64,000 nt of DNA from Draconibacterium sediminis (GCF_000949475.1 NZ_JRHC01000001.1:682001-746000); one strand, 5' to 3'. Positions 17,666 to 32,795 are shown, counted from the first letter of the stretch. Translations and numbers: made by a program. Notes: generated by a model from the letters alone, not told the origin.

Positions 17666-18145
17666 ATGAAGAAATTTGGGGTTATCATCGTTTTGATGAT
17701 GGGGATGTTTTCTGTGCTTTCTGCTCAGGAAAATAAGGTTTACAGCGGATATAAAGAATTGGTTGCTGCCGTAAAACAGGAAATAGATGAGCTTGATGCG
17801 GAAGGATTTCATGAACAATATGTGGAGGGACTGAAGAGCCGAAAGCCCGGCTATATTTTAATCGATGTGCGCACAGAAGATGAATACCGGGACGGACATA
17901 TTCCGGGAGCTTACCTCGTGCAACGCGGTGTGTTGGAATCGCACATAGAAAAGGAAACGGTTTGGGAAGGTTTTCATAACGCGCTACCTAAAAAAACAGA
18001 TACTATTATTTTGTATTGCCGCAGTGGCAGCCGATCGGCACTAGCTGCAAAGTCGCTAAATATGCTGGGTTACGAGCATGTGTATTCGCTTAACGGAGGA
18101 TGGAAAGCATGGCACGAGGCTTACCCGAAACTGGAAAGGTTTTAA
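17666..18145 (+). CDS. Periplasmic single-domain rhodanese
   Basis: 159-residue exported rhodanese (sulfurtransferase). Signal peptide at 1-20 (FSVLSAQ), then one rhodanese domain: ILIDVRTEDEYRDGHIPGA at about 64-82, the active loop CRSGSRSA with Cys118, and the closing YSLNGGWKAWHEAYP. The six-residue loop CRSGSR is the fully canonical sulfur-carrying form, so a persulfide at Cys118 is expected. It contains an extended insert before the active loop. It begins the group of sulfurtransferase genes and lies 129 bases after the MBL-fold gene, probably with its own promoter. Acceptor unknown. Confidence 0.92.
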   Translation: MKKFGVIIVLMMGMFSVLSAQENKVYSGYKELVAAVKQEIDELDAEGFHEQYVEGLKSRKPGYILIDVRTEDEYRDGHIPGAYLVQRGVLESHIEKETVWEGFHNALPKKTDTIILYCRSGSRSALAAKSLNMLGYEHVYSLNGGWKAWHEAYPKLERF

Positions 18146-18211
18146 GGCAATAAACTATCCGACTAATGAGTAACTAGGGTACACAAATAGCTTGTTGTAC
18201 AGGCCGGGTGC

Positions 18212-18415
18212 TTATCGTACTTTTTTACATCCGCGTACAACACAAAATGTGGTGGCAGCTAATCCTATGGCTGCAAATGAAATCAGGCCGGTATAAAATA
18301 CCTGAACCGGTAAATTGGCACAGCATGAAATAAAGCCAAGGATTATGGTGACGAAAAATCCTAATATTCCCCACAGTCCTAAATTGTAGCAGATTAATGT
18401 TACTATTTTATTCAT
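18212..18415 (-). CDS. Small two-helix membrane protein, unrecognised
   Basis: 67-residue hydrophobic protein with two membrane spans (about 10-30 and 38-60), a CC pair at the end of the first helix and a Cys/Lys/Arg-rich end (CVVRGCKKVR). No family recognised. It is divergent from the FNR-type gene at 18523 and shares its control region, which contains a 12-bp inverted repeat, so it may be a target of that regulator. The span has good membrane-protein character, making a chance ORF less likely. Confidence 0.55.
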   Translation of the reverse strand: MNKIVTLICYNLGLWGILGFFVTIILGFISCCANLPVQVFYTGLISFAAIGLAATTFCVVRGCKKVR

Positions 18416-18429
18416 CGTATTAAGTTTTT

Positions 18430-18495
18430 ACAATTATACGACCAATAAAGAACATTGGTTTATTAAACAATGTGAGATAAATCTCGTATAATTGT
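18430..18495. promoter_or_regulatory. Widely spaced 12-bp inverted repeat in a divergent promoter region
   Basis: ACAATTATACGA (18430-18441) and TCGTATAATTGT (18484-18495) are perfect reverse complements, 54 bases start to start, between the divergent small membrane gene and fnr-like gene. Nested inside are CCAAT/ATTGG (18442-18446, 18454-18458) and GAGATAAATCTC (18474-18485). Paired operators or a loop-forming site fit; the right arm reaches the -33 area of the rightward gene. Confidence 0.45.
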
Positions 18496-18511
18496 GATAT
18501 TAATTACATTT

Positions 18512-18519
18512 TAAGTTTG
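18512..18519 (+). promoter_or_regulatory. TAnnTTTG element immediately before the FNR-type gene
   Basis: TAAGTTTG ends 3 bases before the ATG at 18523. With transcription starting about four bases after the motif, the message would begin at or next to the start codon, i.e. leaderless. Confidence 0.45.
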
Positions 18520-18522
18520 CAG

Positions 18523-19215
18523 ATGAACTTAATTGCCAATACCTGTGTTGATTGTAGTCTAAAATCGGGAGCTGTTTCTGTTCTGGATAACAACGAGTTA
18601 TGTGCTCTTGAAGAAGGGTGTGCAAAAACAGAGTACAAAAAAGGCGAACTTATTTTTAAAGAGGGTGGGCTGGTTCAGCATATCATTTATATTCGGAAAG
18701 GATTTGTAAAACTGGTGAAAAAAGGTGCAGGCGGTAAAGACTTTATTCTTAGCGTTTCAAAACAGGGATCGTACCTTGGGATTCAGAACCTGGATGAAAA
18801 CATAAAAACCAATTATTTCTCGGCCATAACATTAACGAACTCGGAAGTGTGTTTTATCGACAGGCACTGTTTTGCCAGTCTGTTAAAACAAAACGGCGAG
18901 TTTGCTCTGAAGGTATTATCAACAGTTTTGAACGACGAAATGAATTATTTCGACCGATTGGTGAAAAACGTGCAGCAACAGTTACCCGGCAGATTGGCTA
19001 ATACCATAAGTTATTTCGCCAACGAAGTTTATGGCGAGAACACTTTTGCCTTAAACCTTACACAAACTGAAATTGCTGCATTAATTGGCACTTCGCGCGA
19101 AAGTATTTCGCGGATATTAAAGGAATTCCAGGAAATGGGAATTATAGCACTTGAACACAATGTGCTTACCATTTTAAACGAAAAAAAGCTGGAGGAAATT
19201 AAACAAAAAGGTTAA
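18523..19215 (+). CDS. FNR-type Crp/Fnr transcriptional regulator (first copy)
   Basis: 230-residue regulator with a cyclic-nucleotide-binding-like sensor domain (about 20-130) and a helix-turn-helix at about 175-205. It has N-terminal Cys8, Cys11, Cys27 and Cys33 plus Cys110 in NSEVCFIDR, which aligns with FNR Cys122 of E. coli, so an oxygen-labile iron-sulfur cluster is plausible. The recognition helix SRESISRILKEFQ keeps the Glu-x-x-Ser-Arg that reads TTGAT half sites. I start it at ATG 18523 rather than the TTG at 18517, which is part of a -7 element. Convergent with a second FNR-type gene; their stop codons overlap on TTAA (19212-19215). Confidence 0.88.
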   Translation: MNLIANTCVDCSLKSGAVSVLDNNELCALEEGCAKTEYKKGELIFKEGGLVQHIIYIRKGFVKLVKKGAGGKDFILSVSKQGSYLGIQNLDENIKTNYFSAITLTNSEVCFIDRHCFASLLKQNGEFALKVLSTVLNDEMNYFDRLVKNVQQQLPGRLANTISYFANEVYGENTFALNLTQTEIAALIGTSRESISRILKEFQEMGIIALEHNVLTILNEKKLEEIKQKG

Positions 19216-19901
19216 CCTACCTGGCTGAGATGGCGCACCCGGTCGAAATCAAGAATCGTAATCTCTTTACCTTTTAACTCGATAATCTTTTCAGATACAA
19301 ATTCCTTAATCACACGCGAAAGACTTTCCTGCGACATGTTGGTAATAGCAGCCATGTCTTTTTTACTGATTGGAACGCTGAACTTTTTTCGCTTGAACAA
19401 ACGAAGGCTGAAACACAAAAGTAAGTCGGCAAAACGACCGTGTAATTGTTTCAGGGTCAGGCAAGCCATTCGGTTGTATGAAAACAACGACTCATCGTTT
19501 AAATGATGCAAAATGCTTGCGCTGAATGCAGCATTATTGTGAATAAATGAATCAATTGTGCTTATATCGTGAAGGCAAACACTGGTATCGGTATATGCTT
19601 TTACAGAATAGGGATAGATATTTTTTGAATAGAGCGCCTGCAAACCTAATAATTTGCCCTGGTTCTCAACCGAAAGTATCAACTCATCGTTGGCATGTTC
19701 GCGGTAAACTTTCACCAGGCCACTTTTAATGTAAATGATGTGTGCAGCCAAAGCACCTTGCTTTGCAATAATCTCTCCTTTTTTGAAATTTACTTCAACA
19801 CGGTTTCGGTTAATCTGAATCAATTCTTCGTTCGTAAGTTTCTTAAAAGGTGCTGACATGCATTTACATCCAACACATTTTTCCAGTTTGTTTAATGGCA
19901 T
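19212..19901 (-). CDS. FNR-type Crp/Fnr transcriptional regulator (second copy)
   Basis: 229-residue paralogue of the neighbouring regulator. The N-terminus has KCVGCKCM with Cys9, Cys12 and Cys14, and Cys109 in DTSVCLHDI aligns with FNR Cys122, the pattern of four cluster ligands. The sensor domain runs about 18-130 and the HTH has SQESLSRVIKEF, again Glu-x-x-Ser-Arg. The start is taken at ATG 19901; the TTG three codons upstream belongs to the -7 motif TAACTTTG (minus strand 19915-19908). A perfect FNR box lies 72 bases upstream, between this gene and the rightward rhodanese operon, so it may control both. The two copies are only moderately similar, so they probably answer different signals. 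Confidence 0.88.
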   Translation of the reverse strand: MPLNKLEKCVGCKCMSAPFKKLTNEELIQINRNRVEVNFKKGEIIAKQGALAAHIIYIKSGLVKVYREHANDELILSVENQGKLLGLQALYSKNIYPYSVKAYTDTSVCLHDISTIDSFIHNNAAFSASILHHLNDESLFSYNRMACLTLKQLHGRFADLLLCFSLRLFKRKKFSVPISKKDMAAITNMSQESLSRVIKEFVSEKIIELKGKEITILDFDRVRHLSQVG

Positions 19902-19972
19902 AATTATCAAAGTTATAAAGGGGGCTAATATAGTTAAAAAGTTAGTACTTAATCAGTACGTCAATCATGTTT

Positions 19973-19986
19973 TTGATCTAAATCAA
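19973..19986. promoter_or_regulatory. Perfect FNR-binding box
   Basis: TTGATCTAAATCAA matches the FNR consensus TTGAT-N4-ATCAA at all ten defined positions. It lies between a regulator whose recognition helix has the FNR-specific Glu-x-x-Ser-Arg and the rhodanese-porin-rhodanese operon. Its centre is about 76 bases upstream of the regulator start and about 96 upstream of the candidate rightward start point, so activation at a distance or an unseen nearer promoter is needed. Confidence 0.8.
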
Positions 19987-20111
19987 ATATTCTACTGACT
20001 ACAATATGAATCCGTCTTGAGGCGGTGACAGGCCGGTTTTCCAATTGGTATAAGTAGCTGTGTTACTTTTGGATTGGTGATTAATTCATCAAAAGTAAAT
20101 TTTAAAAGGAC

Positions 20112-20348
20112 ATGAGAAAGGCATTCATTTCGTTGATGTTAGGCTTTGTTATATGGCTCGGTAAAGTTGTTACAGCCAAACGTAAAGCACTAAATAGTCT
20201 GATGAATAATCTGCTATTCTCCGTTCGTACATTCTTTTCAACAACATTCAGCCATAGTTTATTAACCGGGAGTTGTGTTTGTTACACAACCTCAATCAAA
20301 ACACGACAAGATAATCAGGTAAAAACCGGGATGCCAATATTGCTTTAG
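20112..20348 (+). CDS. Doubtful small protein in operon leader
   Basis: 78-codon ORF with an AAAAGGA stretch before its ATG and a hydrophobic N-terminal segment (SLMLGFVIWLGKVVTA) that could be a signal or membrane helix. The remainder has no family resemblance and looks compositionally irregular. It could be a small membrane protein of the rhodanese operon or a chance ORF in a long leader. Confidence 0.25.
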   Translation: MRKAFISLMLGFVIWLGKVVTAKRKALNSLMNNLLFSVRTFFSTTFSHSLLTGSCVCYTTSIKTRQDNQVKTGMPILL

Positions 20349-20402
20349 TGCAAGAATTATCCGGGTTTATACTATCACTTAAATAACCTAAAATTTTATA
20401 AA

Positions 20403-21392
20403 ATGAAAAAGTACTTTTTTTACACGTTATTACTTGCAATGTTTGCTTCAGTCACGTTTAACGGATGCAAATATGAAGAAGAAGAATGCGATTGTTCAGG
20501 TTCGGAACCGGTAGCTTACGAAACGCTGACCACTTATCTGAAATCGGTTGATATGGATATAAACCATATATTAACTAATGCTGCCGGACAGAAGTTTGTA
20601 ATGGCTGCTCCTGCCGATGGCGATCTTTCATCAAAATGGATTATGGATATTCGTGGTGACGTTGATTTTGCTGCCGCACATATTGAAGGTGCACATAACG
20701 TTGCTTTTGGCGATATTTTAACCGCTGCAGCCACTGCCGATAAACCCATTTTGGTAGTATGTTACACCGGGCAAACTGCTTGCTACGCTACTTCATTACT
20801 TCGCCTTTACGGTTACGAAGATACACAGGCCTTAAAATGGGGAATGAGTGGATGGAATACGAATCTAGACAAATGGACTCCAAACTGTAAATCTTTGGAT
20901 GATGCAAATAACTGGACAAGCAGCGAAGCTACAGCCGGAAGTTTTGACGCTCCAACATGGACAAGTACATCAACAAATGGTGCTGATATTCTTGCCGAAA
21001 GAGTAGAAGAAGTTGTTGCCGCAGGATTTAAAACAGTAAAAGGTGCCGACGTTTTAGCAACGCCAGCTAATTACTACGTAAATAACTATTTCTCGGCCGA
21101 CCATTACACCGGTTTTGGACACGTAAATGGTGCTGTAAGAATCAATCCATTATTAATCGACGATTGCAGCAAACTTGATCCAAACGGTAAAGTAGTTACA
21201 TACTGCTACACCGGACAAACTTCAGCAGTTATTACCGCTTACTTAAATGTTCTTGGTTTTGATGCTTACAGTCTTCTTTTCGGTATGAACGGTTTAAGCC
21301 ATACCAACTCATTCTGGGAAGCTGGTGGCGTAACAAATCACTGGGGATTTGATTCAAATCCTAAGGATCTTCCTACAGTATCTTCTAACTAA
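20403..21392 (+). CDS. Double-rhodanese lipoprotein (both Cys present)
   Basis: 329-residue lipoprotein. The signal ends at FNGC with Cys22 as the probable lipid site; it is an imperfect lipobox. Two rhodanese domains follow: MDIRGDVDFAAAHIEGAHNV with active loop CYTGQTACYA (Cys120) and closing WGMSGW, then VNNYFSADHYTGFGHVNGAV with CYTGQTSAV (Cys268). Both loops keep the catalytic Cys but read CYTGQT instead of CRxGxR, marking a distinct subfamily. It is first in an operon with a porin (65-base gap) and a second sulfurtransferase. A paralogue with the same layout is encoded at 29510. Role in periplasmic sulfane-sulfur transfer is inferred. Confidence 0.9.
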   Translation: MKKYFFYTLLLAMFASVTFNGCKYEEEECDCSGSEPVAYETLTTYLKSVDMDINHILTNAAGQKFVMAAPADGDLSSKWIMDIRGDVDFAAAHIEGAHNVAFGDILTAAATADKPILVVCYTGQTACYATSLLRLYGYEDTQALKWGMSGWNTNLDKWTPNCKSLDDANNWTSSEATAGSFDAPTWTSTSTNGADILAERVEEVVAAGFKTVKGADVLATPANYYVNNYFSADHYTGFGHVNGAVRINPLLIDDCSKLDPNGKVVTYCYTGQTSAVITAYLNVLGFDAYSLLFGMNGLSHTNSFWEAGGVTNHWGFDSNPKDLPTVSSN

Positions 21393-21457
21393 ACGTGTTG
21401 GAGCGGGAAGCTGGTTTTTCAGTCCGCTCTCTTAATTATCAACTAAAAGAACAGATT

Positions 21458-22501
21458 ATGTTACGCAAATTATTATTTATATTATCAGCAGCCTGCTTGT
21501 TGGCTTACAATGCACAGGCGCAGGGATGTTCCGAGCCAGCCTCAGACGAAGGTGTTTCTGTTTTCGGGTACCTGCAGGCGCAATACGATTATGGTTTTGC
21601 CGAAGGTGATAATACCAACACTTTTGGTTTTAACCGCTCACGTATTGGTGTTATGGGAAATATTCCGTACGACTTTAGTTACTATGTTTTGGTAGAAACC
21701 AGTCCGTTTAAAAAGGACGGGCCAAAAGCATATTTGCTCGATGCATTTATTACCTACAAACGTTTTTCGTTTGCAAAGGTAAGTTTGGGTTCCTTTAAAT
21801 CGCCATTCGGACAAGAACTGGGTACGCCTTGTCACTCTTTGTATACCATCAATCGCTCGAAATTTGTAAACGAACTTACTGCACCCGATCGCGATATGGG
21901 CTTAATGGTGCTTGGTGGATCGGATACTACTTTAATTCAATATTCGGTTGCCTTGATGAACGGTACCGGACTTTTGGTTAAAGATGCCGACAAATACAAA
22001 GATGTGGTTGGTAGAGTTTTGGTTCAACCATTCGACTGGATGCATGTTGGTGGTAGTTTCCGTGTTGGTAAAGCTACCAGCCAGGATGAAACAGTTACAG
22101 AACCCGATGAAAGAACTCGCTGGGGCGCTGAGTTTGAAGTGGAAAAATATGGATTCCTTGTGCAGGGAGAATACATCTGGGCCGAAGACAAAGGTTCGTA
22201 CCTGGTAGGCGGCGGATGTGGCGGCGATCCTGAATTGGTTCAGGGTAGTGTTGAACGCGAAGGTTTATCTATTATGGCCCTTTACAACCTGACTTATAAT
22301 TTCCAGCCTGTTATTAAATACGAGAATTACAACAGCGATTTGAGTTTGGGTAATAACAACATGGAACATATTACAACCGTAGGTTTCAACTATTTCTTTA
22401 ACGAGTGGACTCGTTTACAGGTGAACTACGAATATAAAGCTGAATGGGCCAATGAAATTTCGAACGATATGATTATGGTTCAGCTACAGGTAAGATTCTA
22501 A
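21458..22501 (+). CDS. Outer-membrane porin, phosphate-selective porin O/P-like
   Basis: 347-residue beta-barrel protein starting at MLRKLLFILS (21458), where a signal peptide ends near AYNAQAQ. Features: FGYLQAQYDYGF near the N-terminus, alternating strands throughout, FKSPFGQELGTP as the loop typical of Porin_O_P proteins, and a terminal Phe (LQVRF) as in barrel proteins. Two Cys-containing loops (GCSEP and GGGCGGDP) are unusual for a porin. Its place between two sulfurtransferase genes suggests it passes an anionic sulfur compound such as thiosulfate or polysulfide, which is inference from context. It ends 6 bases before the next start. Confidence 0.85.
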   Translation: MLRKLLFILSAACLLAYNAQAQGCSEPASDEGVSVFGYLQAQYDYGFAEGDNTNTFGFNRSRIGVMGNIPYDFSYYVLVETSPFKKDGPKAYLLDAFITYKRFSFAKVSLGSFKSPFGQELGTPCHSLYTINRSKFVNELTAPDRDMGLMVLGGSDTTLIQYSVALMNGTGLLVKDADKYKDVVGRVLVQPFDWMHVGGSFRVGKATSQDETVTEPDERTRWGAEFEVEKYGFLVQGEYIWAEDKGSYLVGGGCGGDPELVQGSVEREGLSIMALYNLTYNFQPVIKYENYNSDLSLGNNNMEHITTVGFNYFFNEWTRLQVNYEYKAEWANEISNDMIMVQLQVRF

Positions 22502-22507
22502 TTTTAA

Positions 22508-23362
22508 ATGATAAAGGATATGAAACTTAATAGATTATTTCTCTTAGGATTGGTGCTGTTGCTGGCTTCTGCTGTTTCAGCACAGGATTTGATCTCGGCA
22601 AATGAGCTTAAACAGAATTTAAAAAACCCGAATTACATCATTGTTAATGCTGCTGCAAATCAAAAAGTGTTTATTCGTGGTGCGATTGATTTACCACACG
22701 GAACACTTTGTACCGATGAGCCTATCCGTAATATTATCAAATCGCCGGAAGAAATGGCTGCAGAGCTTGGAAACCATGGTATATCAGCTGATAAGACCAT
22801 TGTTGTGTACGATGAGGGATCTACAAAATATGCCGGTCGTATGTACTGGATGTTAAAGTATCTGGGAGCACCAAATGTAAAAATGTTGGATGGTAACATT
22901 ACCGGGTGGAAAGCAACACGCGGACCAATCGGGACAGCATCAAAAGGGAGCAAAACCACATTTACCCTCAATGTTGACGCCAACCAACTGGCAACTATGG
23001 CTGAGGTAAAAAAGGCGGTTAACAACCCATCATATGTAATTGTTGATGCGCGCACACCGGAAGAATATGCCGGTACTGCGGAAACAGAACTGGCAAGACC
23101 GGGACACGTTCCGAGCGCTGTTAATGTGAACTACGAAACCCTGGTTGATGGAAAAAGTTTGCTAAAATCGAACGAAGCACTTACTTCGATGTTTGAATCG
23201 AAGGGGATTACCAAAGATAAAACGGTTATTGTTTATTGCGAAACCAGTGTACGTGCCGGAGTTATTTATTTGGCATTGAAAGGTTTGGGGTATCCAAACG
23301 TAAAAGTATACGACGGAGCTTATTTGGAATGGCAATCTGTCGATTCGAATGAGATAGGTTAG
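22508..23362 (+). CDS. Exported thiosulfate/3-mercaptopyruvate-type sulfurtransferase
   Basis: Two-domain rhodanese of the classic TST/SseA layout, 284 residues, with a signal peptide ending at SAVSAQ. An alternative start at 22520 (MKLNRLFLLG) gives a tidier signal peptide. The first domain has VVYDEGSTKYAGRMYW with no Cys at the catalytic place, as expected of the inactive half; the second has VIVDARTPEEYAG and the loop CETSVRAG with Cys244. The active loop differs from CRKGVT (rhodanese) and CGSGVT (mercaptopyruvate), so donor preference cannot be called. Last gene of the rhodanese-porin operon and followed by two terminators. Confidence 0.92.
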   Translation: MIKDMKLNRLFLLGLVLLLASAVSAQDLISANELKQNLKNPNYIIVNAAANQKVFIRGAIDLPHGTLCTDEPIRNIIKSPEEMAAELGNHGISADKTIVVYDEGSTKYAGRMYWMLKYLGAPNVKMLDGNITGWKATRGPIGTASKGSKTTFTLNVDANQLATMAEVKKAVNNPSYVIVDARTPEEYAGTAETELARPGHVPSAVNVNYETLVDGKSLLKSNEALTSMFESKGITKDKTVIVYCETSVRAGVIYLALKGLGYPNVKVYDGAYLEWQSVDSNEIG

Positions 23363-23377
23363 CCTTTCGCATGTCCT

Positions 23378-23408
23378 GAGCGCCCTGGTATTTACCGGGC
23401 GCTCTTTT
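23378..23408 (+). terminator. Terminator of the rhodanese-porin operon
   Basis: Stem GAGCGCCC / GGGCGCTC with an 11-base loop region and a T4 tail, 15 bases after the sulfurtransferase stop. Confidence 0.8.
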
Positions 23409-23461
23409 CATGTAATAAAAACTGTACTGATTCATCAGTAAACAGGCTACCATAAAAGCAT

Positions 23462-23499
23462 AAAAAAACCGCTAACCAAAACTGGTTAGCGGTTTTTTT
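23462..23499. terminator. Bidirectional terminator between convergent units
   Basis: AAAAAACCGCTAACCA pairs with TGGTTAGCGGTTTTTT; A run on the left and T run on the right let it stop transcription from both the sulfurtransferase operon and the leftward lipoprotein gene. Confidence 0.88.
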
Positions 23500-23515
23500 A
23501 TATTGTTGTTTCTAA

Positions 23516-24139: not shown

Positions 24140-24201
24140 AGCAATAGACTTTTTATAATTAAACTTCATTTTTTAGTGTTAAAACAAGTATAGTGCCAAA
24201 A

Positions 24202-24232
24202 AAACCTTCGGCTATTGCCGAAGGTTTATATT
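24202..24232 (-). terminator. Terminator after Gfo/Idh/MocA gene
   Basis: Perfect 11-bp stem AAACCTTCGGC / GCCGAAGGTTT (24202-24227) with a TATT loop; seven T follow on the minus strand. Confidence 0.88.
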
Positions 24233-25669: not shown

Positions 25670-27211
25670 TTATTTTCCGGTATTCTCATCATATTCGCAC
25701 ACTACTCTGAAACTAATGTAATTACAGTCCGACAACCACCAGATACTCTTTGGCATTTGCGGATCGGTTTTCATCCATGCTTCGCTGCGGGTGTAATCGC
25801 GGGCAGCACTTCTAACTTCGCCAACAGGGCTTTTAAATGTTCCGCCACGAATAACGTGCTCCTCGCCCGAAGCCGGTCCTTTCGGATCGGTCGCGCCATC
25901 GCTTAATTTCGAATAGGCATCTTCGGCGTACCAGTCGGCACAATATTCGGCAGCATTACCAAGCATGTTTTTCAACCCAAACGGATTGGCTTCAACAATG
26001 TCGGGCTTGGCAGTTTTCAGTCCGCTGTTTTTTTCGTAAACAATATAGTTATTAATAACGTCGCTTCCTTTTCCGAATAATTTTCCAATAAAGTTTTTGT
26101 CTTTAAAGTCTTTTGGCTCACCTTCAAAGAAGAACGGTGTTTCCGTTCCTCCGCGGGCGGCATATTCCCACTCGGCTTCTGTTGGCAGGCGGTAAGTTTT
26201 TCCGGTAACCTGCGATAGCCATTTGCAATAGGTTTCGGCCGAATGGTAGCTCATCGTAATAGCCGGACGGCTGCCCATTCCCCAGTTTTGGTCGGGTTGC
26301 CCGTAAGGTGGTGTTGGGCCCGAGATAGCATCAACATCAACATCGGTTTCAGTACGTGTACCTTCTGTGTCGGTTGTTCTGCCTTCTGCGGCAGTGGCGC
26401 TGTAAAAGGCCAGGTATTCATCCCAGCTCACTTCTATTTCGGCCATAAAGAACGGACTTACATTCACCGTTTTCTGTGGCCCTTCATCGTTTTCACGAAG
26501 TTGTTCCGTTTCAGGACTTCCAATTTTGAAACTTCCACCCGGAATAGCTTTCATATTAAATGCAATTGTTGTTCCCGGAATAGTTTCGGTATAATCTTCA
26601 TGAGCAGTAACTTCAGCTGCAGCTTCATATCTTTCCTGTGATTCGGCACCGGCGCTTCCAAACTCAACATTTTTCGCGTGCAGTGCATTCGGATCGTAAT
26701 GGCCAACATTCAGGTGGCAGTTGATACAACGCAATTCCTCTTCGTTTTGCGAATAGTAAAGGTGCGCTTGCTGACCTTCGGAAGTTAGCGTTAGCGGAAA
26801 TAAATTGGCGTGGCAACTGATGCACGATTCTTCAAATACAAAATGTTGTGCCTGCTCGAGCGAAGACTTGGCTTCCCAGTTAAAATCGGCGCTGTCTTTA
26901 AAGAAATATCCATACGCATCGCGGGCACCGGCTTTTATTTTCTCTTTTAAGTAGCCTTGTCCTTTTGGCGGAAGATGACACTCAACGCAGCCAATATGCA
27001 TACCTGTTCTGTTCTCGTGGTGAACAGAGAGTTTCCACGAATCAAAAACATGAGGGTGAACGTGACACACTTCGCACGATTCGTTTGTTGAAGTAGCTTC
27101 AATAACTTTAAGAGAAGAAATGGTAACAGCGATACCAATAATAAATCCGATAAAAATAATTAGTAACAGCTTTTTTCGAAGGTAGTTACCAAAACGTTGA
27201 AACATGGCCAT
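25670..27211 (-). CDS. NapC/NrfH-like tetraheme cytochrome c fused to SUMF1 domain
   Basis: 513-residue membrane-anchored protein. One N-terminal helix (about 14-35) is followed by four CXXCH motifs: CEVCH 46-50, CVECH 75-79, CISCH 130-134 and CINCH 162-166, the one-helix-plus-four-hemes build of NapC/NrfH quinol dehydrogenases. From about 218 to the end it is a formylglycine-generating-enzyme-like (SUMF1) domain: PGGSFKIGSPETE, TYRLPTEAEWEYAARGG, NPFGLKNMLGNAAEYCADWY, HVIRGGTF. The active CYRYRC-type cysteines of true FGE are not there (C-terminus is SDCNYISFRVVCEY), so catalysis is doubtful. A start three codons later (MFQRFG) is possible. First gene of the unit with the downstream oxidoreductase. 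The fusion is unusual. Confidence 0.88.
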   Translation of the reverse strand: MAMFQRFGNYLRKKLLLIIFIGFIIGIAVTISSLKVIEATSTNESCEVCHVHPHVFDSWKLSVHHENRTGMHIGCVECHLPPKGQGYLKEKIKAGARDAYGYFFKDSADFNWEAKSSLEQAQHFVFEESCISCHANLFPLTLTSEGQQAHLYYSQNEEELRCINCHLNVGHYDPNALHAKNVEFGSAGAESQERYEAAAEVTAHEDYTETIPGTTIAFNMKAIPGGSFKIGSPETEQLRENDEGPQKTVNVSPFFMAEIEVSWDEYLAFYSATAAEGRTTDTEGTRTETDVDVDAISGPTPPYGQPDQNWGMGSRPAITMSYHSAETYCKWLSQVTGKTYRLPTEAEWEYAARGGTETPFFFEGEPKDFKDKNFIGKLFGKGSDVINNYIVYEKNSGLKTAKPDIVEANPFGLKNMLGNAAEYCADWYAEDAYSKLSDGATDPKGPASGEEHVIRGGTFKSPVGEVRSAARDYTRSEAWMKTDPQMPKSIWWLSDCNYISFRVVCEYDENTGK

Positions 27212-27616
27212 TGGTTATTTTAGGTTTCTTGATTAAACAATGCGGGTAAAAATACTAATTTATATGGCTAAAATTCTGACTTTTGTAGGTTTAAAATTAT
27301 ACAACTTAACTTTATTCCTCAACAATTTCAGAAAATTCAACCATTTGTCTTTAGTTAAGACGCAGGCTTTATAATAAATACCTATTTTTTATTAAATAAA
27401 AAGGTTGTCTCGAATGCGACAACCTTTGCAGATGACTTCCGGAGAGGAATACAGGAGAGATAGGGAAATTATTTTTATACAGTTGCAAGTTATGGATGTT
27501 TTATCCGGGGCTGATTATGTAAAGATTACTAATGGGTTAATGAATTATTAATCAGCAACAATCAACTTTTAACTAAACATTAAATGGTTAAATAGAGAAT
27601 TTTGTAACTTTCAGCT
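27212..27616. other. Gene-less divergent stretch with a leftward terminator-like hairpin
   Basis: 405 AT-rich bases between the leftward cytochrome gene and rightward comF. I find no exact TAnnTTTG for either gene; TAACTTTC before comF differs at one base. The hairpin AAAGGTTGTC (27400-27409) / GACAACCTTT (27418-27427) has its T run on the minus strand, although no leftward gene precedes it. Confidence 0.45.
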
Positions 27617-28318
27617 ATGAACCTTCTCAAGCAAAGTATTACAGATGTGTTGGGCCTGTTTTTTCCCGAGCTGTGTGTTACCTGCGGGAAACGTCTGGTA
27701 ACACAGGAAACCTTCGTATGTTTTACTTGCTGGCACGATTTGCCGGTAACCAATTTTCATTTAAAGCAGGATAATAAAGTGGCTCAATTATTTTGGGGGC
27801 GGGTTGAAATTTCAGCAGCAACAGCTTTTTTTAGCTTCAGGAAAGGAAGTAAATACCAGCAACTTATTCATTTTGTAAAGTACAAAGGATTAAAGGAACT
27901 GGGTAAGGAAACCGGGAAAAAATTTGGATTGCAATTGTTGCAATCACCTTGCTTTGCTGAAATCGACGTTTTAATGCCGGTGCCGCTACATCCACGAAAA
28001 GAAAAGAAGCGCGGTTTTAACCAAAGTGAGTGGATAGCTCGTGGAATTGCTGAAGTTTTAAAAAAGCCGGTTGACACCGTAACGCTGCACCGAAAGGAAT
28101 ATACATCGACCCAAACAAAACGAAACCGCTACGAACGCTGGCAGAACGTTGAAAGTGTTTTTGGGTTGAATGATCCCAAGGCGGTTGAAAATATGCATGT
28201 TTTGCTCGTTGACGATGTGGTAACCACCGGCGCAACGCTGGAAGCTTGTGCAATTCACTTGTTAAAACAACCCGGAACAAAAGTCAGTATTGCCACGCTG
28301 GCTTATGCCGATATTTAA
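27617..28318 (+). CDS. ComF family phosphoribosyltransferase-like protein
   Basis: 233-residue cytosolic protein of the ComF family, needed for DNA uptake in competent bacteria and frequently found in non-competent ones. N-terminal zinc-ribbon cysteines occur as CVTCGKR and CFTCW within the first 40 residues; the type I phosphoribosyltransferase core ends with the PRPP motif VLLVDDVVTTGATLEAC at about 200-216. LMPVPLHPRKEKKRGFNQS is the other strongly conserved ComF motif. It is an isolated gene in the middle of the sulfur island and probably unrelated to it. Confidence 0.9.
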   Translation: MNLLKQSITDVLGLFFPELCVTCGKRLVTQETFVCFTCWHDLPVTNFHLKQDNKVAQLFWGRVEISAATAFFSFRKGSKYQQLIHFVKYKGLKELGKETGKKFGLQLLQSPCFAEIDVLMPVPLHPRKEKKRGFNQSEWIARGIAEVLKKPVDTVTLHRKEYTSTQTKRNRYERWQNVESVFGLNDPKAVENMHVLLVDDVVTTGATLEACAIHLLKQPGTKVSIATLAYADI

Positions 28319-28386
28319 TGTTCGGTCTTATTCTACTGATAATCTAATCGATACTCTGGAAAGCCGTTTTAAACAATGTTTCCCAT

Positions 28387-28429
28387 CAATCTGTTAAACC
28401 AACAGATTGTCTGAGTTTATTATCATCAA
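28387..28429. promoter_or_regulatory. Palindrome and near-FNR box before rhodanese-lipoprotein operon
   Basis: Perfect inverted repeat CAATCTGTT (28387-28395) / AACAGATTG (28401-28409), then TTTATTATCATCAA (28416-28429), which matches the FNR box at nine of ten positions, 14 bases before the ATG at 28444. The near-box may be chance; the position would fit repression or a very short leader. Confidence 0.3.
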
Positions 28430-28443
28430 AAAAATAAAATAGT

Positions 28444-29496
28444 ATGAAAATTACACGATTGTTTTTGCTTGCCCTAGTGGTTATGGGTTTTATGGCCTGT
28501 AACCAAAAGCCGGCAACCACCGAAGATGTTAACGTAAAGTATTACCGCCAGCTGTTATTTAGCGAAACACCCTGGGATTTGGAGCGTGGTTCGCATGAAA
28601 TTTCGGCCGATGAAGCAGAAAAAGTGAATAACTACAAATTTACCTGGAACGATGACGGTACACTGGCATCGGTAGAATTCAACCGCAACGGTGTGTTGCT
28701 GGGCTATTCAAACCTGCGGGCTGCAAAAATTACCTATACCTACGATGGTAACAAGCAGATCAAACATTTCTTTAACAAAGAAGGAGAGCCCATTGAAAGC
28801 GGTGGTGCGTTTACACAGGAATATACACTCGATGATTCGGGAATGCGCGTTGCGATGCGTTTCCTCGATAAAGAGGGAAATCCAACCGAAAACCGTAATA
28901 ACATACACAATTATGTGTGGTCGAAACTGGATGATGGAATGATTCGCGAATTGCGTTACAATCTGGCCGAGGAAGAAACAATCATGAATCCGTTTTGCCC
29001 GTTTTATGAGTTGCGTTTTTCGTATGATGCAAATGGTTACGTAACCCGAATGGCCAACTATATTGAAGATACCATGTACAACTGCACCGCCGAAAATTGT
29101 GGCGATGTTGGAGTTTCATATTTCTTATTCGAAAACAACGACAAAGGTGATTTATTGAGCTTTTCGGTGCACAGCACTACAGGCCAGCTTTCGAATTTAT
29201 ACTGGGGCTGGGCCAAGCGTCAAAATGTTGTTGATGAATATGGCAATGCGGTAAAAACAGTTGTTTACGATCAGGACGATGAATTACTTGGCGGAAAAGG
29301 AATTCCGGTAACCGAAAATGAATACAACGAATATGGCGAGTTGGTAAAAAGTATTTCGAAAGATGCCGATGGAAATGTGGTGAACAACCCGAATAACGGT
29401 GTGGCTATTGTGGAATACAAATACGACGAGCAGGGCCGCAGAGTAGAAACCCTTCGTTACGACAAAGAGATGAATCCTGTTGAAAGTCAGAGCTAA
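28444..29496 (+). CDS. Lipoprotein with YD-like repeat character, unrecognised
   Basis: 350-residue lipoprotein (signal ending at the lipobox FMAC). The body has irregular repeats of the kind YDxxGxxxxxxxxDxxGNxV (WNDDGTLASVEFNRNG; YDANGYVTRMANY; YNEYGELVKSISKDADGNVV), resembling beta-repeat proteins related to YD/MORN-type repeats, which wrap into beta structures. No catalytic motif recognised. It starts an operon with the double-rhodanese lipoprotein 13 bases downstream, so it may be its periplasmic partner. Function unknown. Confidence 0.75.
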   Translation: MKITRLFLLALVVMGFMACNQKPATTEDVNVKYYRQLLFSETPWDLERGSHEISADEAEKVNNYKFTWNDDGTLASVEFNRNGVLLGYSNLRAAKITYTYDGNKQIKHFFNKEGEPIESGGAFTQEYTLDDSGMRVAMRFLDKEGNPTENRNNIHNYVWSKLDDGMIRELRYNLAEEETIMNPFCPFYELRFSYDANGYVTRMANYIEDTMYNCTAENCGDVGVSYFLFENNDKGDLLSFSVHSTTGQLSNLYWGWAKRQNVVDEYGNAVKTVVYDQDDELLGGKGIPVTENEYNEYGELVKSISKDADGNVVNNPNNGVAIVEYKYDEQGRRVETLRYDKEMNPVESQS

Positions 29497-29509
29497 TACG
29501 TATTAATTT

Positions 29510-30553
29510 ATGATCAAGATAAAACCGATTTTAAGTTTTCTTACACTGGCTGCTTTTGTTGTTTTATTTTCCTGCTCGGGTGGGCAGAAAAAAACGGAAC
29601 AGGCTGATAGCAGTGTGCAAGAATCAAACCCAAAAGTAGAGGTAAATGCCGAGGCAAAATTACTTTTGAAAACGCTGAATGAAATGGGCGATTATGCCAA
29701 CAGCCGTGATTTCCCGTCGCTAATAAAACCATCGTCGGTTAATGAAGAACTGGATGGAAACATTCAGATTATTGATTTGCGCAACCAGGATGCGTTTAAC
29801 GACGGGCACATAAAAGGTGCTGTTCGTATTGATTTTAGCGACTTGCCGGCCTACCTTACCAACGATATCAAGCCCTTTGAGTACGATAAAATTGTAGTAG
29901 TTTGTTACTCTGGACAAATCTCAAGTTATGCTGCGTCGTTATTACGACTGGCAGGCTATGGTAATGTTTACGCCATGCGCTGGGGAATGAGTGGCTGGAG
30001 CAAACATTTTGCTGAAGATGCTTGGCTGGCCAATGTTTCTTCTGATTTTCAGGATCAGCTGGAGACGGTAGATCATGACAAAGCACCGATTGCAGATTTA
30101 CCGAAATTGAATACCGGAGCTACCAACGGCGACGAGATTCTGCAACAGCGAATCGAGGCGCTTTTTGCAGCCGGTTATCACGATGCATTGGTGAAAGCCA
30201 GTGCGGTGTTCGAAAATCCCGGGAAATATTATACGATTAATTACGACCGGAAAGACAAGTACGATTCTGGGCATATTCCGGGTGCAATTCGGTATAAACC
30301 CGGCGGAACACTCGGAATTGTTTCAGAGATGCAAACTATTCCGGCTGATAAGGAAGTGGTTTTGTACTGCAACACCGGGCACAATTCTGGTTTTGCAACG
30401 GCTTACCTGCGTTTGTTTGGTTACAATGCCAAAACACTTACGTTTGGGAACAATGCCTTTATGTACGATAAAATGAAAGAAGAAGAAAGCTCGCTATCGT
30501 GGCTGCCGTTTACCGAAACCGAAATTCACGACTATCCGTATGTTCAGAATTAA
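29510..30553 (+). CDS. Double-rhodanese lipoprotein, paralogue of the one at 20403
   Basis: 347-residue lipoprotein (lipobox LFSC, Cys22). First rhodanese domain: IIDLRNQDAFNDGHIKGAV with loop CYSGQISSYA (Cys132) and closing RWGMSGW; second: YDRKDKYDSGHIPGAI with loop CNTGHNSGFA (Cys287). Both catalytic Cys are present. Order of domains, spacing and the NGDEILQQRIEALFAAGYHDALVKA linker match the protein at 20403, so the two arose by duplication and now sit in different operons. Co-transcribed with the upstream lipoprotein. It probably carries sulfane sulfur at the outer or inner membrane; donor and acceptor unknown. Confidence 0.9.
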   Translation: MIKIKPILSFLTLAAFVVLFSCSGGQKKTEQADSSVQESNPKVEVNAEAKLLLKTLNEMGDYANSRDFPSLIKPSSVNEELDGNIQIIDLRNQDAFNDGHIKGAVRIDFSDLPAYLTNDIKPFEYDKIVVVCYSGQISSYAASLLRLAGYGNVYAMRWGMSGWSKHFAEDAWLANVSSDFQDQLETVDHDKAPIADLPKLNTGATNGDEILQQRIEALFAAGYHDALVKASAVFENPGKYYTINYDRKDKYDSGHIPGAIRYKPGGTLGIVSEMQTIPADKEVVLYCNTGHNSGFATAYLRLFGYNAKTLTFGNNAFMYDKMKEEESSLSWLPFTETEIHDYPYVQN

Positions 30554-30575
30554 ATAGTGATTTTTCTTAAAGATA

Positions 30576-31016
30576 TTATTCCAGCCTGATCGTCGTGTCG
30601 GGCTGGAATTTATATTTTAATGCTTCCGGATTTTCTTCGTCAGAGAGAATATATATACCATCAAATTCCAATTGATTCAGAATTACCCAGGCTTTTGAAC
30701 TTGTAGCAATATCGGCGGAATAAAGCAGAATTTTGCCATCAAGCACAGCCAGTTTCTCTTTGTTTTCCTTTTCAAGAAGTTGGTCAAAAGGTATCACCAT
30801 CGAATTTGGGAAACGTTGTTGTTCGGCGTCCAGTTCAACTATCGAGAAGCTGTTAGGCAAGTCGTTTAATTCCTGCACCGAAACGGTAATTTCTGCTGTC
30901 GTAGTCAGTGCTTCGCTCACATTTCTTTTAAACAGATTCGGATTAAAAGTTCGCACCAAAACCAGTACAACGAGTACCAGCAGAACACCTAAAATCCATG
31001 TTATATTCTTTTTCAT
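30576..31016 (-). CDS. Degenerate membrane-anchored rhodanese-like protein without Cys
   Basis: 146-residue protein with one N-terminal membrane helix (about 6-22) and a shortened rhodanese-like domain: FSIVELDAEQQRFPNSMVIPF corresponds to the DxR/EF and HIPGA part, and ILLYSADIATSSKAWVILNQLEFDGIYIL to the active loop and following helix. There is no cysteine anywhere in the protein, so it cannot be a sulfurtransferase and may serve as a binding or scaffold partner. It ends the four-gene operon with two YeeE/YedE halves and another Cys-loop-less rhodanese, 12 bases downstream of the latter. A hairpin spans its last codons. Confidence 0.7.
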   Translation of the reverse strand: MKKNITWILGVLLVLVVLVLVRTFNPNLFKRNVSEALTTTAEITVSVQELNDLPNSFSIVELDAEQQRFPNSMVIPFDQLLEKENKEKLAVLDGKILLYSADIATSSKAWVILNQLEFDGIYILSDEENPEALKYKFQPDTTIRLE

Positions 31017-31028
31017 TTTGTATCGGTT

Positions 31029-31640
31029 TTATTCACAACCTCCGTCCAGCTGCGATTCTTCCAGTCGTTTTGCTTCGAGGTATTGTTTTTTTAAACTGTC
31101 GGGCAAACTGTTGATTTGTGTAAATGTTCTTCGTGCTTTGTAGCGGTTTTCGAATAATGAATTTTCGCGTGGAGTAATACGTTCGCCTGTAAATTCGCTC
31201 AGCATAACCGTAAGGTACCACTCATTCATCCCGCCCTTCATTACAAACGAATTCGAATAACCCAGTCCGCTAACAATAGTCCAGGCCATATTGGCCGTTT
31301 CGTCGCCGTTTGCATAATATACATTTCTAACTCTGTCCTGATTCAGGTAACCTTCCCAGTTGGGATTGAGCAAATCGTTGAACGGAATATTTATCGAGCC
31401 CGGAATATTACTTTCCATAAATTCGGAAGCACTTCGTAAATCGATCAGTTGAATGGTGCTGTCTTCGTTATTTACAAATCGGGCCACCTCGTCAACTGAA
31501 AAATACATGTCGGAATTCGACGAAATTTCGAGCAATTCGGTGGGTTTCAGTTGAAAAGATTTTGCTGCATTAAAAGGCAAAAAAGCCAAAATCAATCCAA
31601 CGCCGGCCAGTAATACTGATATTTTTATTCGTGCATTCAT
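31029..31640 (-). CDS. Rhodanese-like protein lacking catalytic Cys, with C-terminal Gly-Gly-Cys
   Basis: 203-residue exported or membrane-anchored protein (hydrophobic N-terminus at about 6-28). The rhodanese fold is clear: IQLIDLRSASEFMESNIPGSINIPF and NSFVMKGGMNEW, but the active loop reads YYANGDETANMAW with no Cys. The only cysteine is the penultimate residue of the protein, in LDGGCE. A Cys at the end of a flexible charged tail after two Gly could replace the loop Cys as sulfur carrier, or could be a metal ligand. It starts 6 bases after the YeeE/YedE gene and is surely co-translated. I regard it as the specialised partner of the permease. Confidence 0.82.
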   Translation of the reverse strand: MNARIKISVLLAGVGLILAFLPFNAAKSFQLKPTELLEISSNSDMYFSVDEVARFVNNEDSTIQLIDLRSASEFMESNIPGSINIPFNDLLNPNWEGYLNQDRVRNVYYANGDETANMAWTIVSGLGYSNSFVMKGGMNEWYLTVMLSEFTGERITPRENSLFENRYKARRTFTQINSLPDSLKKQYLEAKRLEESQLDGGCE

Positions 31641-31646
31641 TGTTAA

Positions 31647-32249
31647 TCAAATTTCGGATGTGATGTCGTTTCGTGCATATTTCTTTTCGGCCAGTTCGGC
31701 CAGCCAGAACATTGCAATTGCAGCGGCGATCAGCAGAAAGGTAAAAATTCCGGGCGAAACTCCCATCCATTCATCCACACGCACAGGGCCTTTGTAATTC
31801 GCTCCTGCCAGTGTCTGTATCATCGGAAACGATTCGGCAAAAAGAAATGCACCACTCAGTCCGCCCACAAGAAAAAACAAGGCATCGATTTTCCCAATCG
31901 ATAGTGCGCTGATTCCGGTACCCGGACAAAAACCACCCATAATAAATCCGGCTCCCATAATTACTCCGCCAACGAGTGTTGCGGTTACGTAATATGGATT
32001 TACATACACCAGATTTAAATCCAGTAAGCCAAAGTAGCTTAGCAATTGCGAACCTGCCAGCGCTACGATTGCGGCCGTAAAAAACACTTTTAAAACGGTG
32101 GTGTCGTAGCCGTAAAACATGCCTGCCAGTTTTCGGCTCGACGAAAAACCGGCCTGCTCCAATGCGAAGCCAAAGCCAATTCCGATAAAAAATCCAATGC
32201 CGAGGTTAAGCCATTCCGGAAGATCGTTAAGTAATGTAATCGGTCCCAT
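31647..32249 (-). CDS. YeeE/YedE family sulfur permease, second half-protein
   Basis: 200-residue integral membrane protein of the YeeE/YedE (TsuA-type) family, which takes up thiosulfate or other sulfur compounds. About five membrane spans; family Cys motif GGFCPGTGISAL is clear, together with GFALEQAGFSS. Full-length TsuA-type proteins carry two such halves in one chain, whereas here the other half is encoded separately just upstream, 36 bases away. The two halves probably form one transporter. It is followed closely by two Cys-loop-less rhodaneses that may receive or gate the substrate. Confidence 0.9.
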   Translation of the reverse strand: MGPITLLNDLPEWLNLGIGFFIGIGFGFALEQAGFSSSRKLAGMFYGYDTTVLKVFFTAAIVALAGSQLLSYFGLLDLNLVYVNPYYVTATLVGGVIMGAGFIMGGFCPGTGISALSIGKIDALFFLVGGLSGAFLFAESFPMIQTLAGANYKGPVRVDEWMGVSPGIFTFLLIAAAIAMFWLAELAEKKYARNDITSEI

Positions 32250-32285
32250 AATTTTTGAATTACTGAATTACTGAAGGATTGAGTT

Positions 32286-32795
32286 TTAAATCCAAAGTTT
32301 TCTGAAAAACCAGGCAAATAAGAAGGCCGAGCCAAAAATGCCAAGCATGGTCATAAATCCGGCTACTGAAAGTACTGCCATTCCTGAGAGAGCAGCGCCG
32401 CTGGTGCATCCGCGAGCCAGTTGTGCCCCGTATACAAAAAACACACCGCCCAGAAAGGCAAACAACAAGCGTTTCCCATTCGATATTTTTGGCGATTTTT
32501 CAATTTTGAATTTCAGTCGGCCCGAGATGGCTCCCGAAATAAATCCTCCTAAAAACATACCAAGCACTTCAAGTGCCAGCCAGCTTTTTAATGGATTTTT
32601 ACCGTCGTCAAAATATTTACTGTAGTAAGGTGATTCCATGGCATGTTTGTGATCAATCGTTTCAACAGCCGCTACAACGGCGTATTTTAATCCGCCGCTG
32701 GCTCCCAATCCGCGCCCTGAAAAAAACATGGCGCTTAAAAGTACCAGACCAAGTAGCACTCCCGCCAGGTATGGGTTCATGTATTTCTTTCTCAT
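32286..32795 (-). CDS. YeeE/YedE family sulfur permease, first half-protein
   Basis: 169-residue integral membrane protein, first gene of the leftward operon. The conserved motif YGAQLARGCTSGAALSG contains the transport Cys; spans lie at about 8-28, 65-85, 110-130 and 140-162. An in-family loop with DHKHAMESPYYSKYF lies in the periplasm. Together with the next gene it makes up the two-half YeeE/YedE layout common in Bacteroidota. The upstream region has a 16-bp palindrome that is a good operator candidate and a divergent haemoglobin gene. Confidence 0.9.
   Translation of the reverse strand: MRKKYMNPYLAGVLLGLVLLSAMFFSGRGLGASGGLKYAVVAAVETIDHKHAMESPYYSKYFDDGKNPLKSWLALEVLGMFLGGFISGAISGRLKFKIEKSPKISNGKRLLFAFLGGVFFVYGAQLARGCTSGAALSGMAVLSVAGFMTMLGIFGSAFLFAWFFRKLWI

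Follow-up and report, generated by a model that had tools for sequence, protein, structure and literature searches.

The stretch of DNA analysed here (the window, 64,000 nucleotides, G000:C1:682001-746000 of the 6.0 Mb Draconibacterium sediminis host genome) carries, between positions 17666 and 32795, a dense cluster of genes for exported or membrane-anchored rhodanese-type proteins, together with a porin and a YeeE/YedE permease split into two halves. Comparison with related genomes divides the cluster into two recurrent, conserved gene orders, module I (rhd1 - LipoA - porin - MST rhodanese) and module II (yedB - yedA - R1 - R2 - LipoB), which we discuss as a candidate envelope sulfur system. 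Gene content and its conservation, the loss of the catalytic cysteine from R1, the invariant Gly-Cys at the end of that protein, the three invariant cysteines of the porin, and the adjacency of a PhsA/PsrA-like reductase in numerous relatives and also at another host locus were read directly from the sequences and carry the argument that follows.

Eight of the 14 matches to the rhodanese profile PF00581 found genome-wide in 6.0 Mb lie within these 15 kb, a clustering that is far from chance. The genes with matches above the cut-off of 22.2 bits are those at 17666 (one domain), 20403, 22508 and 29510 (two domains each), and 31029 (one domain). The product of 30576 gave no Pfam rhodanese match above the cut-off; its family profile aligns with that of 31029 and its relatives (hhalign probability 99.3; E 1.5e-20). 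Weaker support for the same assignment comes from Foldseek, where the model of 30576, of modest predicted local distance difference test score (pLDDT 76), has rhodanese domains as its best matches, one of which reaches E <0.001. Judged by eye, six of the nine domains have the catalytic cysteine: the one in 17666, the pairs in 20403 and 29510, and the second in 22508. The first domain of 22508 and those of 30576 and 31029 lack it; by motif count, most LipoA and LipoB relatives keep it. Export signals, read from sequence and hydropathy, comprise signal peptides on 17666 and 22508, lipoboxes on 20403 and 29510, and an N-terminal membrane helix on 30576 and 31029. The initial annotation had listed six exported or anchored rhodanese-family proteins with nine domains between them, and all of these open reading frames (ORFs) lie where it had placed them, the ninth domain (30576) being recognised through its profile and Foldseek. 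Its calls of a split YeeE/YedE permease (31647 and 32286, which cover the N- and C-terminal parts of PF04143), a porin (21395; PF07396, 47.2 bits against a cut-off of 20.9) and a NapC/NrfH-like cytochrome (25670; PF03264 and PF03781) were likewise borne out.

Relatives were drawn from a sample of 149 genomes of the order, searched with LipoB (29510), of which 85 match at 1e-3, many of them through ordinary rhodaneses. Around the long LipoB matches 58 loci were read, each of them chosen through its LipoB or LipoA gene; the search with 29510 also gave 80 named loci, short ones included, 50 of which reach at least 9 kb upstream.

The central protein of module II is R1 (31029-31640, minus strand; PF00581, 49.7 bits), a membrane-anchored pseudo-rhodanese that ends in DGGCE. 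Among 89 distinct R1 proteins the catalytic column never holds cysteine (Ser in 58, Gly in 18, Ala in 10, Asp in 2, Thr in 1), and the model of R1 (pLDDT 85.7) consists of a membrane helix at residues 3-20, a rhodanese core and a helical extension, with the terminal residues 201-203 below pLDDT 50; its Foldseek matches are rhodaneses. R2 (30576-31016, minus strand) is a degenerate, membrane-anchored pseudo-rhodanese related to R1 by the profile and Foldseek comparisons given above, and it too is without the catalytic cysteine, which 2 of 27 long R2 proteins possess. LipoB (29510-30553, plus strand; PF00581, 103.7 bits) is a double-rhodanese lipoprotein with both catalytic cysteines. Directly 5' of it, in the window as in 58 of the 80 named loci, stands rhs (28444-29496, plus strand), a lipoprotein with a weak match to the RHS repeat (PF05593, 23.7 bits).

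The permease halves are encoded by yedA (31647-32249, minus strand), the PmpB-like N-terminal half covering positions 10-161 of PF04143, and yedB (32286-32795, minus strand), the PmpA-like C-terminal half covering positions 174-309. The yedA cysteine lies in a GGFCPGT motif found in 82 of 88 relatives and the yedB cysteine in an RGCTSG motif found in 93 of 93; a conserved permease cysteine is also present in 14 of 14 proteins in which yedA and R1 are fused. Hydropathy of one such fusion (L080) places the last yedA helix at residues 169-187 and the membrane helix of R1 itself at 208-226, and because the R1 helix follows the last yedA helix, the R1 domain would be periplasmic if yedA ends in the cytoplasm. 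Fusion and adjacency together point to the permease as one partner of the R1 arm. A bacterial-type globin gene (32955-33407) adjoins yedB and is also labelled in L097-L101, L103, L105-L108, L114 and L131.

The C-terminal GGC of R1 (codons 31035-31043, minus strand) is invariant in the 32 sequences of the R1 alignment. Counted over distinct proteins from 158 loci, a sample that leans towards the window's clade with its tailless R2 and LipoB, all 89 R1 proteins end in Gly-Cys followed by zero to two residues (84 of them in GGC), versus 1 of 1286 other ORFs of at least 100 residues. The same ending was found in 13 of 14 yedA-R1 fusions, 32 of 119 LipoB, 24 of 78 R2 and 1 of 88 yedA proteins, and in none of 95 yedB, 24 LipoA, 17 MST rhodaneses, 23 porins, 30 each of PsrA, PsrB and PsrC, or 24 each of the octaheme cytochrome and cytochrome b.

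In many genomes the Lys-rich tails of R1, R2 and LipoB from one locus are near-identical. Over the 11 residues that precede GGC, R1 and R2 tails share 72% identity versus 31% when shuffled (18 loci), R1 and LipoB 59% versus 27% (13 loci), and R2 and LipoB 56% versus 18% (15 loci); none of 10,000 shuffles reached the observed value in any of the three pairings. Core identity between R1 and R2 is 27% (18-33%). Of 195 tail residues identical in the two, 80 are encoded by different codons, for which reason gene conversion was rejected as the whole cause of the likeness. Two loci have tails that look recently copied (L053 and L212, with 1 and 2 codon differences in 14). Because the tails are alike, the cores divergent and the codons different, the tails appear to be selected for a shared partner and not shaped by recent copying alone; the simplest reading is that they are kept alike by meeting the same partner.

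Module I opens with rhd1 (17666-18145, plus strand; PF00581, 82.2 bits), a single-domain exported rhodanese with a catalytic cysteine. Among its relatives, 13 of 15 have that cysteine and 11 of 14 distinct proteins end in GGC followed by zero to two residues; those in module I often end in GGC or GGCGG, and the window copy has no such tail. In three loci where rhd1 ends in GGCGG (L060, L061 and L070), and in part in L066, we also observed full-length YedE, TusA, and DsrE-, HdrA2-, HdrC- and FlpD-like genes. Two Crp/Fnr-type regulators (PF00027, PF13545) follow rhd1 in the window, one crpA-like (18517-19215, plus strand) and one crpB-like (19212-19910, minus strand); crpB-like genes recur in module I loci L058-L062, L066, L067, L073 and L074, and crpA-like genes near permease-less LipoB genes in L039, L040, L048, L087 and L096. 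Beyond them lie LipoA (20403-21392, plus strand; PF00581), a double-rhodanese lipoprotein with both catalytic cysteines, the porin (21395-22501, plus strand), and an MST/TST-type double-domain exported rhodanese with a catalytic cysteine in its second domain (22508-23362, plus strand; PF00581, 113.6 bits), which scores 135.9 bits against NF008557, under its cut-off of 250. LipoA was labelled in 18 of the 58 loci, with the porin adjoining in 17 and the MST gene present in 13.

A Lys/acid-rich stretch follows the lipobox cysteine of LipoA. With a home-made lipobox pattern, the ten residues past the cysteine hold a mean of 3.87 Asp or Glu in 23 LipoA proteins, 1.61 in 97 LipoB and 1.09 in 57 rhs lipoproteins. 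We take this stretch to resemble the surface-export signal of Bacteroidota lipoproteins, and LipoA would then be a lipoprotein of the surface-export type. Taken together, the genes of module I suggest a surface rhodanese, a cysteine-bearing pore and periplasmic rhodaneses. In two loci (L065:5120-7009 and L072, from 8942, 627 residues) a LipoA-type protein of about 628 residues precedes the three-cysteine porin; each has two matched stretches, probably four rhodanese domains.

The porin ORF was called from a GTG at 21395; most related porins begin about 21 residues later, and the true start is probably near 21458. Three cysteines are invariant in all 22 distinct homologs aligned (the window porin included), each of which has 3-5 cysteines in total: C45 (21527-21529, plus strand) in AQGC near the mature N-terminus, with (A/G/S)QGC across homologs; C146 (21830-21832, plus strand) in FKSPFGQELGTPC, with FKxxxxxExxTxC across homologs; and C275 (22217-22219, plus strand) in a GGGCG loop, which is a GGC loop in homologs, mostly GGGC. 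The porin profile matches OprP (2o4v, E 5.7e-14) and OprO, and in the profile alignment the C146 column corresponds to Ser125 of the 2o4v chain, presumably one of the phosphate-holding residues of the constriction. For comparison we collected 30 Porin_O_P loci of the order; five belong to module I and one (L292) has no ORF, leaving 24 controls. Among 20 controls alignable at the C146 column, 14 have Ser, one has Cys (L283, in a gapped stretch) and five have other residues; no cysteine stands at the C45 column in 4 alignable controls or at the C275 column in 12. These columns, together with a second Porin_O_P protein of the host that has no cysteine and lies beside an ArsR-like rhodanese, led us to reject cysteine as a general habit of the family. 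That second porin sits in a row with the ArsR-like rhodanese fusion and with NifS-like and DsrE-like genes recognised by eye (L277:8768-13049, G000:C12), possibly a separate sulfur or selenium locus.

Module II occurs in 22 of the 58 loci; PsrA is also present in 13, the octaheme cytochrome in 8 and at least one of the two in 18, leaving L051 and the window-like L077-L079. To avoid rhodanese anchoring, a further sample was built on the PhsA/PsrA-like protein of a second host locus (L207). At 1e-200 this query found 43 of the 149 genomes in 44 places, whose surroundings were taken from 42 loci plus L053 and L207, and 40 of the 44 show the order psrABC-yedB-yedA-R1. Three of the four exceptions are cut by contig ends (L255, L268, L271), and the fourth (L270) is a copy in genome G085 that lies behind module I. 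Of the 40 R1 proteins, 39 have a Gly-Cys ending and the fortieth (L235) is cut off by the contig end. Representative family scans identified a molybdoenzyme, a 4Fe-4S subunit and an NrfD/PsrC subunit, and the reductase-type molybdoenzymes have, by eye, a twin-arginine-like N-terminus. The second host locus lies outside the window (about G000:C1:802386-808720; L207:4887-11221) and reads psrABC-yedB-yedA-R1-R2, with R1 (G000:C1:807446-808054) and R2 both ending in VAAGGC. At phylum level, the R1 profile matches 215 of 395 Bacteroidota genomes at 1e-8, many through ordinary rhodaneses, and 52 genomes reach 80 bits; 18 hand-picked places at or above 80 bits (L209-L226) have yedB in 17 and an R1 or fusion ending in Gly-Cys in all 18. 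The yedA-R1 fusions, of about 400 residues, follow an octaheme cytochrome of the tetrathionate reductase family (TIGR04315, 574.4 bits, cut-off 375; L065 tested, others assigned by likeness) and a PhsC-like cytochrome b (113.2 bits, under the cut-off of 204).

The two modules also meet. Three loci (L171 and L176 from Flavobacteriaceae, and L209 from the same class) carry a one-strand run psrA-B-C-yedB-yedA-R1-R2-LipoB-LipoA-porin, in which the largest gap is 965 bases (R2 to LipoB) and the others are at most 85. In L067 a gap of 196 bases separates module I from the psrABC that follows it; in L068 psrABC lies 3.6 kb past module I with an 11-CXXCH ORF between. Of the 19 genomes with module I among the 149 (the set was assigned by hand, and in G031 the porin was unmatched by the query), 15 have the reductase operon, versus 28 of the 130 without module I (Fisher 1.7e-6). 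In 11 of these 15 (G010, G031, G033, G049, G052, G056, G062, G084, G099, G124 and G128) the two are on separate contigs; in the others they are about 40 kb apart on one contig (G005), about 3.6 kb apart (G020), about 95 kb apart (the host), or joined, with a second psrABC immediately behind module I (G085). Larger neighbourhoods than the contigs of these draft assemblies show are possible. ORFs with 11-12 CXXCH motifs lie at or near psrA (L068:4775, L171:1394, L176:3, L209:14954), a possible link to Ext-type cytochromes.

The idea that the 15 kb form one operon set was rejected on these separate contigs, and the reading of the island as a single unit, a point that the initial annotation had left to a co-occurrence test, was not supported as such and is right only in part: the neighbourhood analysis gave two separately conserved modules lying next to each other. 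What stood of the proposed sulfur-carrier network for thiosulfate or polysulfide is an envelope network linked to reduction, through the 40 of 44 psrABC-yedBA-R1 orders and the joint runs. In the co-occurrence check that had been suggested for the lipoprotein, porin and tetraheme genes, module I, NapC-FGE and module II were together in only 3 of the 80 named loci (L098, L099 and L100).

NapC-FGE (25670-27211, minus strand) is a NapC/NrfH tetraheme protein fused to an FGE/SUMF1 domain and occurs in 19 of the 149 genomes. Neither genomes with module I (1 of 19, Fisher p 0.94) nor those with the reductase operon (6 of 43, p 0.48) show an enrichment for it; it lies near LipoB in 10 of the 80 named loci, all from Draconibacterium, Maribellus and close relatives, and six genomes (G007, G014, G032, G072, G131 and G146) have it and a full-length LipoB on different contigs, the LipoB match of a further one (G125) being broken. 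Membership in the unit was rejected on these grounds, and NapC-FGE is probably a bystander. A second host copy lies at G000:C1:595672-597150. The genes for a Gfo/Idh protein (24268), ComF (27617) and a collagen-like lipoprotein (23516) were hardly seen in the 58 loci (one weak collagen-like match, in L050) and recur solely in loci of the Draconibacterium/Maribellus type, plus one ComF in L223.

The window's clade has a rearranged module II, in which rhs-LipoB faces R2-R1-yedA-yedB, and 54 of the 80 named loci have rhs upstream together with convergent carriers or permease. The named loci closest to 29510 come from Draconibacterium orientale (90% identity), an uncultured Draconibacterium, D. 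mangrovi and Maribellus sediminis, records of the host's own genome possibly having been left out. D. orientale (L097) keeps rhd1, a regulator and NapC-FGE, and LipoA-porin-MST was not detected in its 10 kb flank. Near permease-less LipoB genes in L039, L041, L044, L045, L049 and L050 we noted a multiheme protein of about 450 residues with no NCBIfam match (L045 tested).

On balance we lean towards reading modules I and II as two parts of one envelope sulfur system for dissimilatory use, in which a Cys-to-Cys relay of sulfane sulfur would feed a reductase and/or a permease; the use would most likely be the reduction of thiosulfate, polysulfide or related sulfane-sulfur compounds. We infer from sequence each sulfur-transfer step that follows, as well as direction and substrate. 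Passage of sulfane sulfur or thiosulfate through the outer membrane would be the task of LipoA and the cysteine-bearing porin, whose C275 in the GGGCG loop, C146 in place of OprP Ser125 and C45 at the N-terminus are candidate docking or hand-over points. Periplasmic rhodaneses (the MST type, rhd1 and LipoB) would bind sulfur on their catalytic cysteines and load the C-terminal cysteine of R1 and, in other lineages, those of R2, LipoB and rhd1 as well. The persulfide on these arms would then be offered to the split permease of PmpAB type, to the periplasmic molybdenum reductase of the psrABC-yedBA-R1 operon, or to both; R1 would keep its rhodanese fold as a scaffold and work in the manner of SoxY. 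The PhsA-like, NrfD and octaheme neighbours favour the reduction of thiosulfate, polysulfide or tetrathionate. A bolder version, which we put forward tentatively and hold to be rather doubtful, is a covalent wire of surface rhodanese, porin with three pore-lining cysteines, periplasmic rhodaneses, GGC arms and two-cysteine permease, along which one sulfane sulfur would pass from thiol to thiol, from the cell exterior to a respiratory reductase or the cytoplasm, with no free polysulfide. Sulfur import into the cytoplasm has been described as poorly understood (PMC11582611).

Several observations weigh against this relay. In the window itself module II carries the tail on R1 alone, R2 and LipoB being without it, and the window copy may be specialised or dependent on the second locus. 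The R1 label was given on similarity to queries most of which are tailed, and this could favour tailed proteins in the counts. Control porins carry 0-3 cysteines each, at other positions, and the place of C275 in the window porin is a prediction from sequence. The Fisher test on module I and the reductase operon ignores kinship among genomes, and the molybdoenzyme of L046, for which the best NCBIfam match is thiosulfate reductase PhsA (NF012032), scores 493.7 bits and does not reach the equivalog cut-off of 694. The window variant (rhs with R1 or yedA) has no PsrABC, octaheme or cytochrome b label in the flanks of 59 of 60 named loci, the remaining one (L107) showing a lone PsrC label. Finally, the HdrA-, TusA- and DsrE-like genes of module I loci L060, L061 and L070 belong to this side of the account, and sequence leaves the direction, whether reduction, oxidation or assimilation, unfixed.

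With no reductase beside it, the window variant may serve assimilation or the second locus, and the permease and carriers might import sulfane sulfur or thiosulfate for assimilation or detoxification, the reductase neighbourhood reflecting shared regulation only. Such import has precedents in TsuA, which takes up thiosulfate as a sulfur source, and in PmpAB-like proteins, which increase sulfane sulfur in the cell (PMC11582611); the psrABC-yedBA-R1 order in 40 of 44 places speaks against it, as do the 18 of 22 permease loci near PsrA or the octaheme cytochrome, three of the four exceptions being the window variant, and we regard assimilation as unlikely. With respect to direction, other lineages might, given their Hdr-, TusA- and DsrE-like genes, use the system for oxidation or disproportionation, handing sulfane sulfur from sulfide or thiosulfate inwards. 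The HdrA2-, FlpD-, TusA-, DsrE- and full-length YedE-like genes of the GGCGG-rhd1 loci, with TusA and YedE in L066 too, form a set reminiscent of the sHdr and YTD clusters, and GGCGG is the motif of SoxY (PMC6067878). Most reductase-type neighbours, however, are PhsA/PsrA-like molybdoenzymes or cytochromes of the tetrathionate reductase family, and an oxidative direction seems to us the least probable of the alternatives.

The Gly-Cys end could also be a structural tether, an inter-protein disulfide or an anchor that joins R1, R2 and LipoB, and no sulfur-carrying arm at all. Alike tails within one locus are in keeping with this and also expected from a common docking partner, and a disordered end fits both readings. 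Even so, a cysteine placed at the flexible end of sulfur-transfer proteins, together with the loss of the catalytic cysteine in R1, mirrors the SoxY arm (PMC6067878), and a tether gives a poorer account of the tail on single-domain rhd1 enzymes (11 of 14); we give it a low probability, much as we do assimilation. A further alternative, a shade less probable than these two, concerns module I, which might be a Bacteroidota relative of Geobacter ExtH/ExtI engaged in electron transfer or in the reduction of selenite/tellurite-type oxyanions, with sulfur not the main substrate. NCBIfam matches the porin to ExtI (57.8 bits) and 22508 to ExtH (58.3 bits), loss of ExtI impairs selenite and tellurite reduction (PMC5877670, PMC6148476), and the chemistries of selenium and sulfur overlap. 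ORFs with at least four CXXCH motifs were found in 8 of 24 LipoA loci, five of them with multiheme ORFs of 8-12 motifs near module I (L065, L068, L171, L176 and L209) and three being the four-motif NapC-FGE of L098-L100. Against this, both scores are far under the equivalog cut-offs (150 for ExtI, 200 for ExtH), no ORF with at least four CXXCH motifs was found in 16 of the 24 LipoA loci, some of which are short, and module I co-occurs with the PhsA/PsrA-like operon and with other rhodaneses.

If the relay operates broadly as we propose, the gene set offers, across much of Bacteroidota, candidate sulfur carriers with a likely reactive C-terminal cysteine outside the usual active site, together with a candidate partner, and the porin offers a defined set of cysteines to alter. 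R1 with terminal Gly-Cys, the split YedBA and PhsA-like genes would together serve as a marker of possible thiosulfate or polysulfide respiration in Bacteroidota, many of them uncultured. More generally, a rhodanese annotation can mask proteins that have no rhodanese active site.

The initial annotation knew of no described system with this set of genes. In the open-licence PMC literature we found no description of C-terminal GGC rhodaneses, of a three-cysteine Porin_O_P porin or of a psrABC-yedBA-R1 operon; the C-terminal Gly-Cys and the three-cysteine porin, neither of which the initial annotation mentioned, do look new. Other parts resemble Geobacter ExtH/ExtI and Sud, which qualifies its statement. 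Accordingly, we see the combination as a variation on known systems, with the pseudo-rhodanese cysteine arm and the three-cysteine porin as its new elements. The window porin belongs to the same family as the phosphate porins OprP and OprO, from which it differs by the cysteine at the Ser125 position and by two further invariant cysteines. Module I loci L060, L061 and L070 have YedE-, TusA- and DsrE-like genes in common with the YTD cluster (PMC12998232, PMC13047784); such genes were not seen beside the window modules, where the permease is of the split type, and a complete YTD cluster is reported solely from Desulfobacterota and Nitrospirota among the phyla examined (PMC12998232). In Geobacter, ExtH is a rhodanese lipoprotein and ExtI a porin (PMC5877670, PMC6148476), and the clustering of a rhodanese lipoprotein with a phosphate-porin-like porin in extHIJKL is shared by module I, which has Crp-type regulators whereas the Ext cluster has a LysR-type one. 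Membership in the Ext system was rejected, as 22508 (NF040901) and the porin (NF040900) both score below cut-off.

The window permease belongs with the PmpAB and YeeE/YedE (TsuA, SoxT) permeases and consists of two PF04143 halves with one conserved cysteine each, as described for the half-permeases PmpA and PmpB (PMC11582611). It differs by its linkage or fusion to pseudo-rhodanese carriers and by the respiratory-type reductase that accompanies it in relatives. SoxY has its sulfur-binding cysteine in a C-terminal GGCGG (PMC6067878), and sulfur transfer from that cysteine to the cysteines of a YeeE-like channel has been considered (PMC11582611). R1 ends similarly in Gly-Gly-Cys in 84 of 89 proteins, and in the window as DGGCE. 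By Pfam, model and Foldseek, however, R1 has a rhodanese fold, which the SoxY fold is not, and it was rejected as a SoxY member for that reason. Sud is a periplasmic rhodanese-like protein that supplies polysulfide sulfur to PsrABC of the Wolinella type (PMC10092268). The pairing of a rhodanese-type protein with a Psr reductase recurs in psrABC-yedBA-R1. Sud carries polysulfide to PsrA on its catalytic rhodanese cysteine; R1 and 25 of 27 long R2 proteins are without that cysteine, which LipoB has, and the carriers were therefore rejected as members of the Sud family. In its place R1 has a C-terminal cysteine; in the operon psrC and R1 are separated by the split permease, and the carriers are often two in number.

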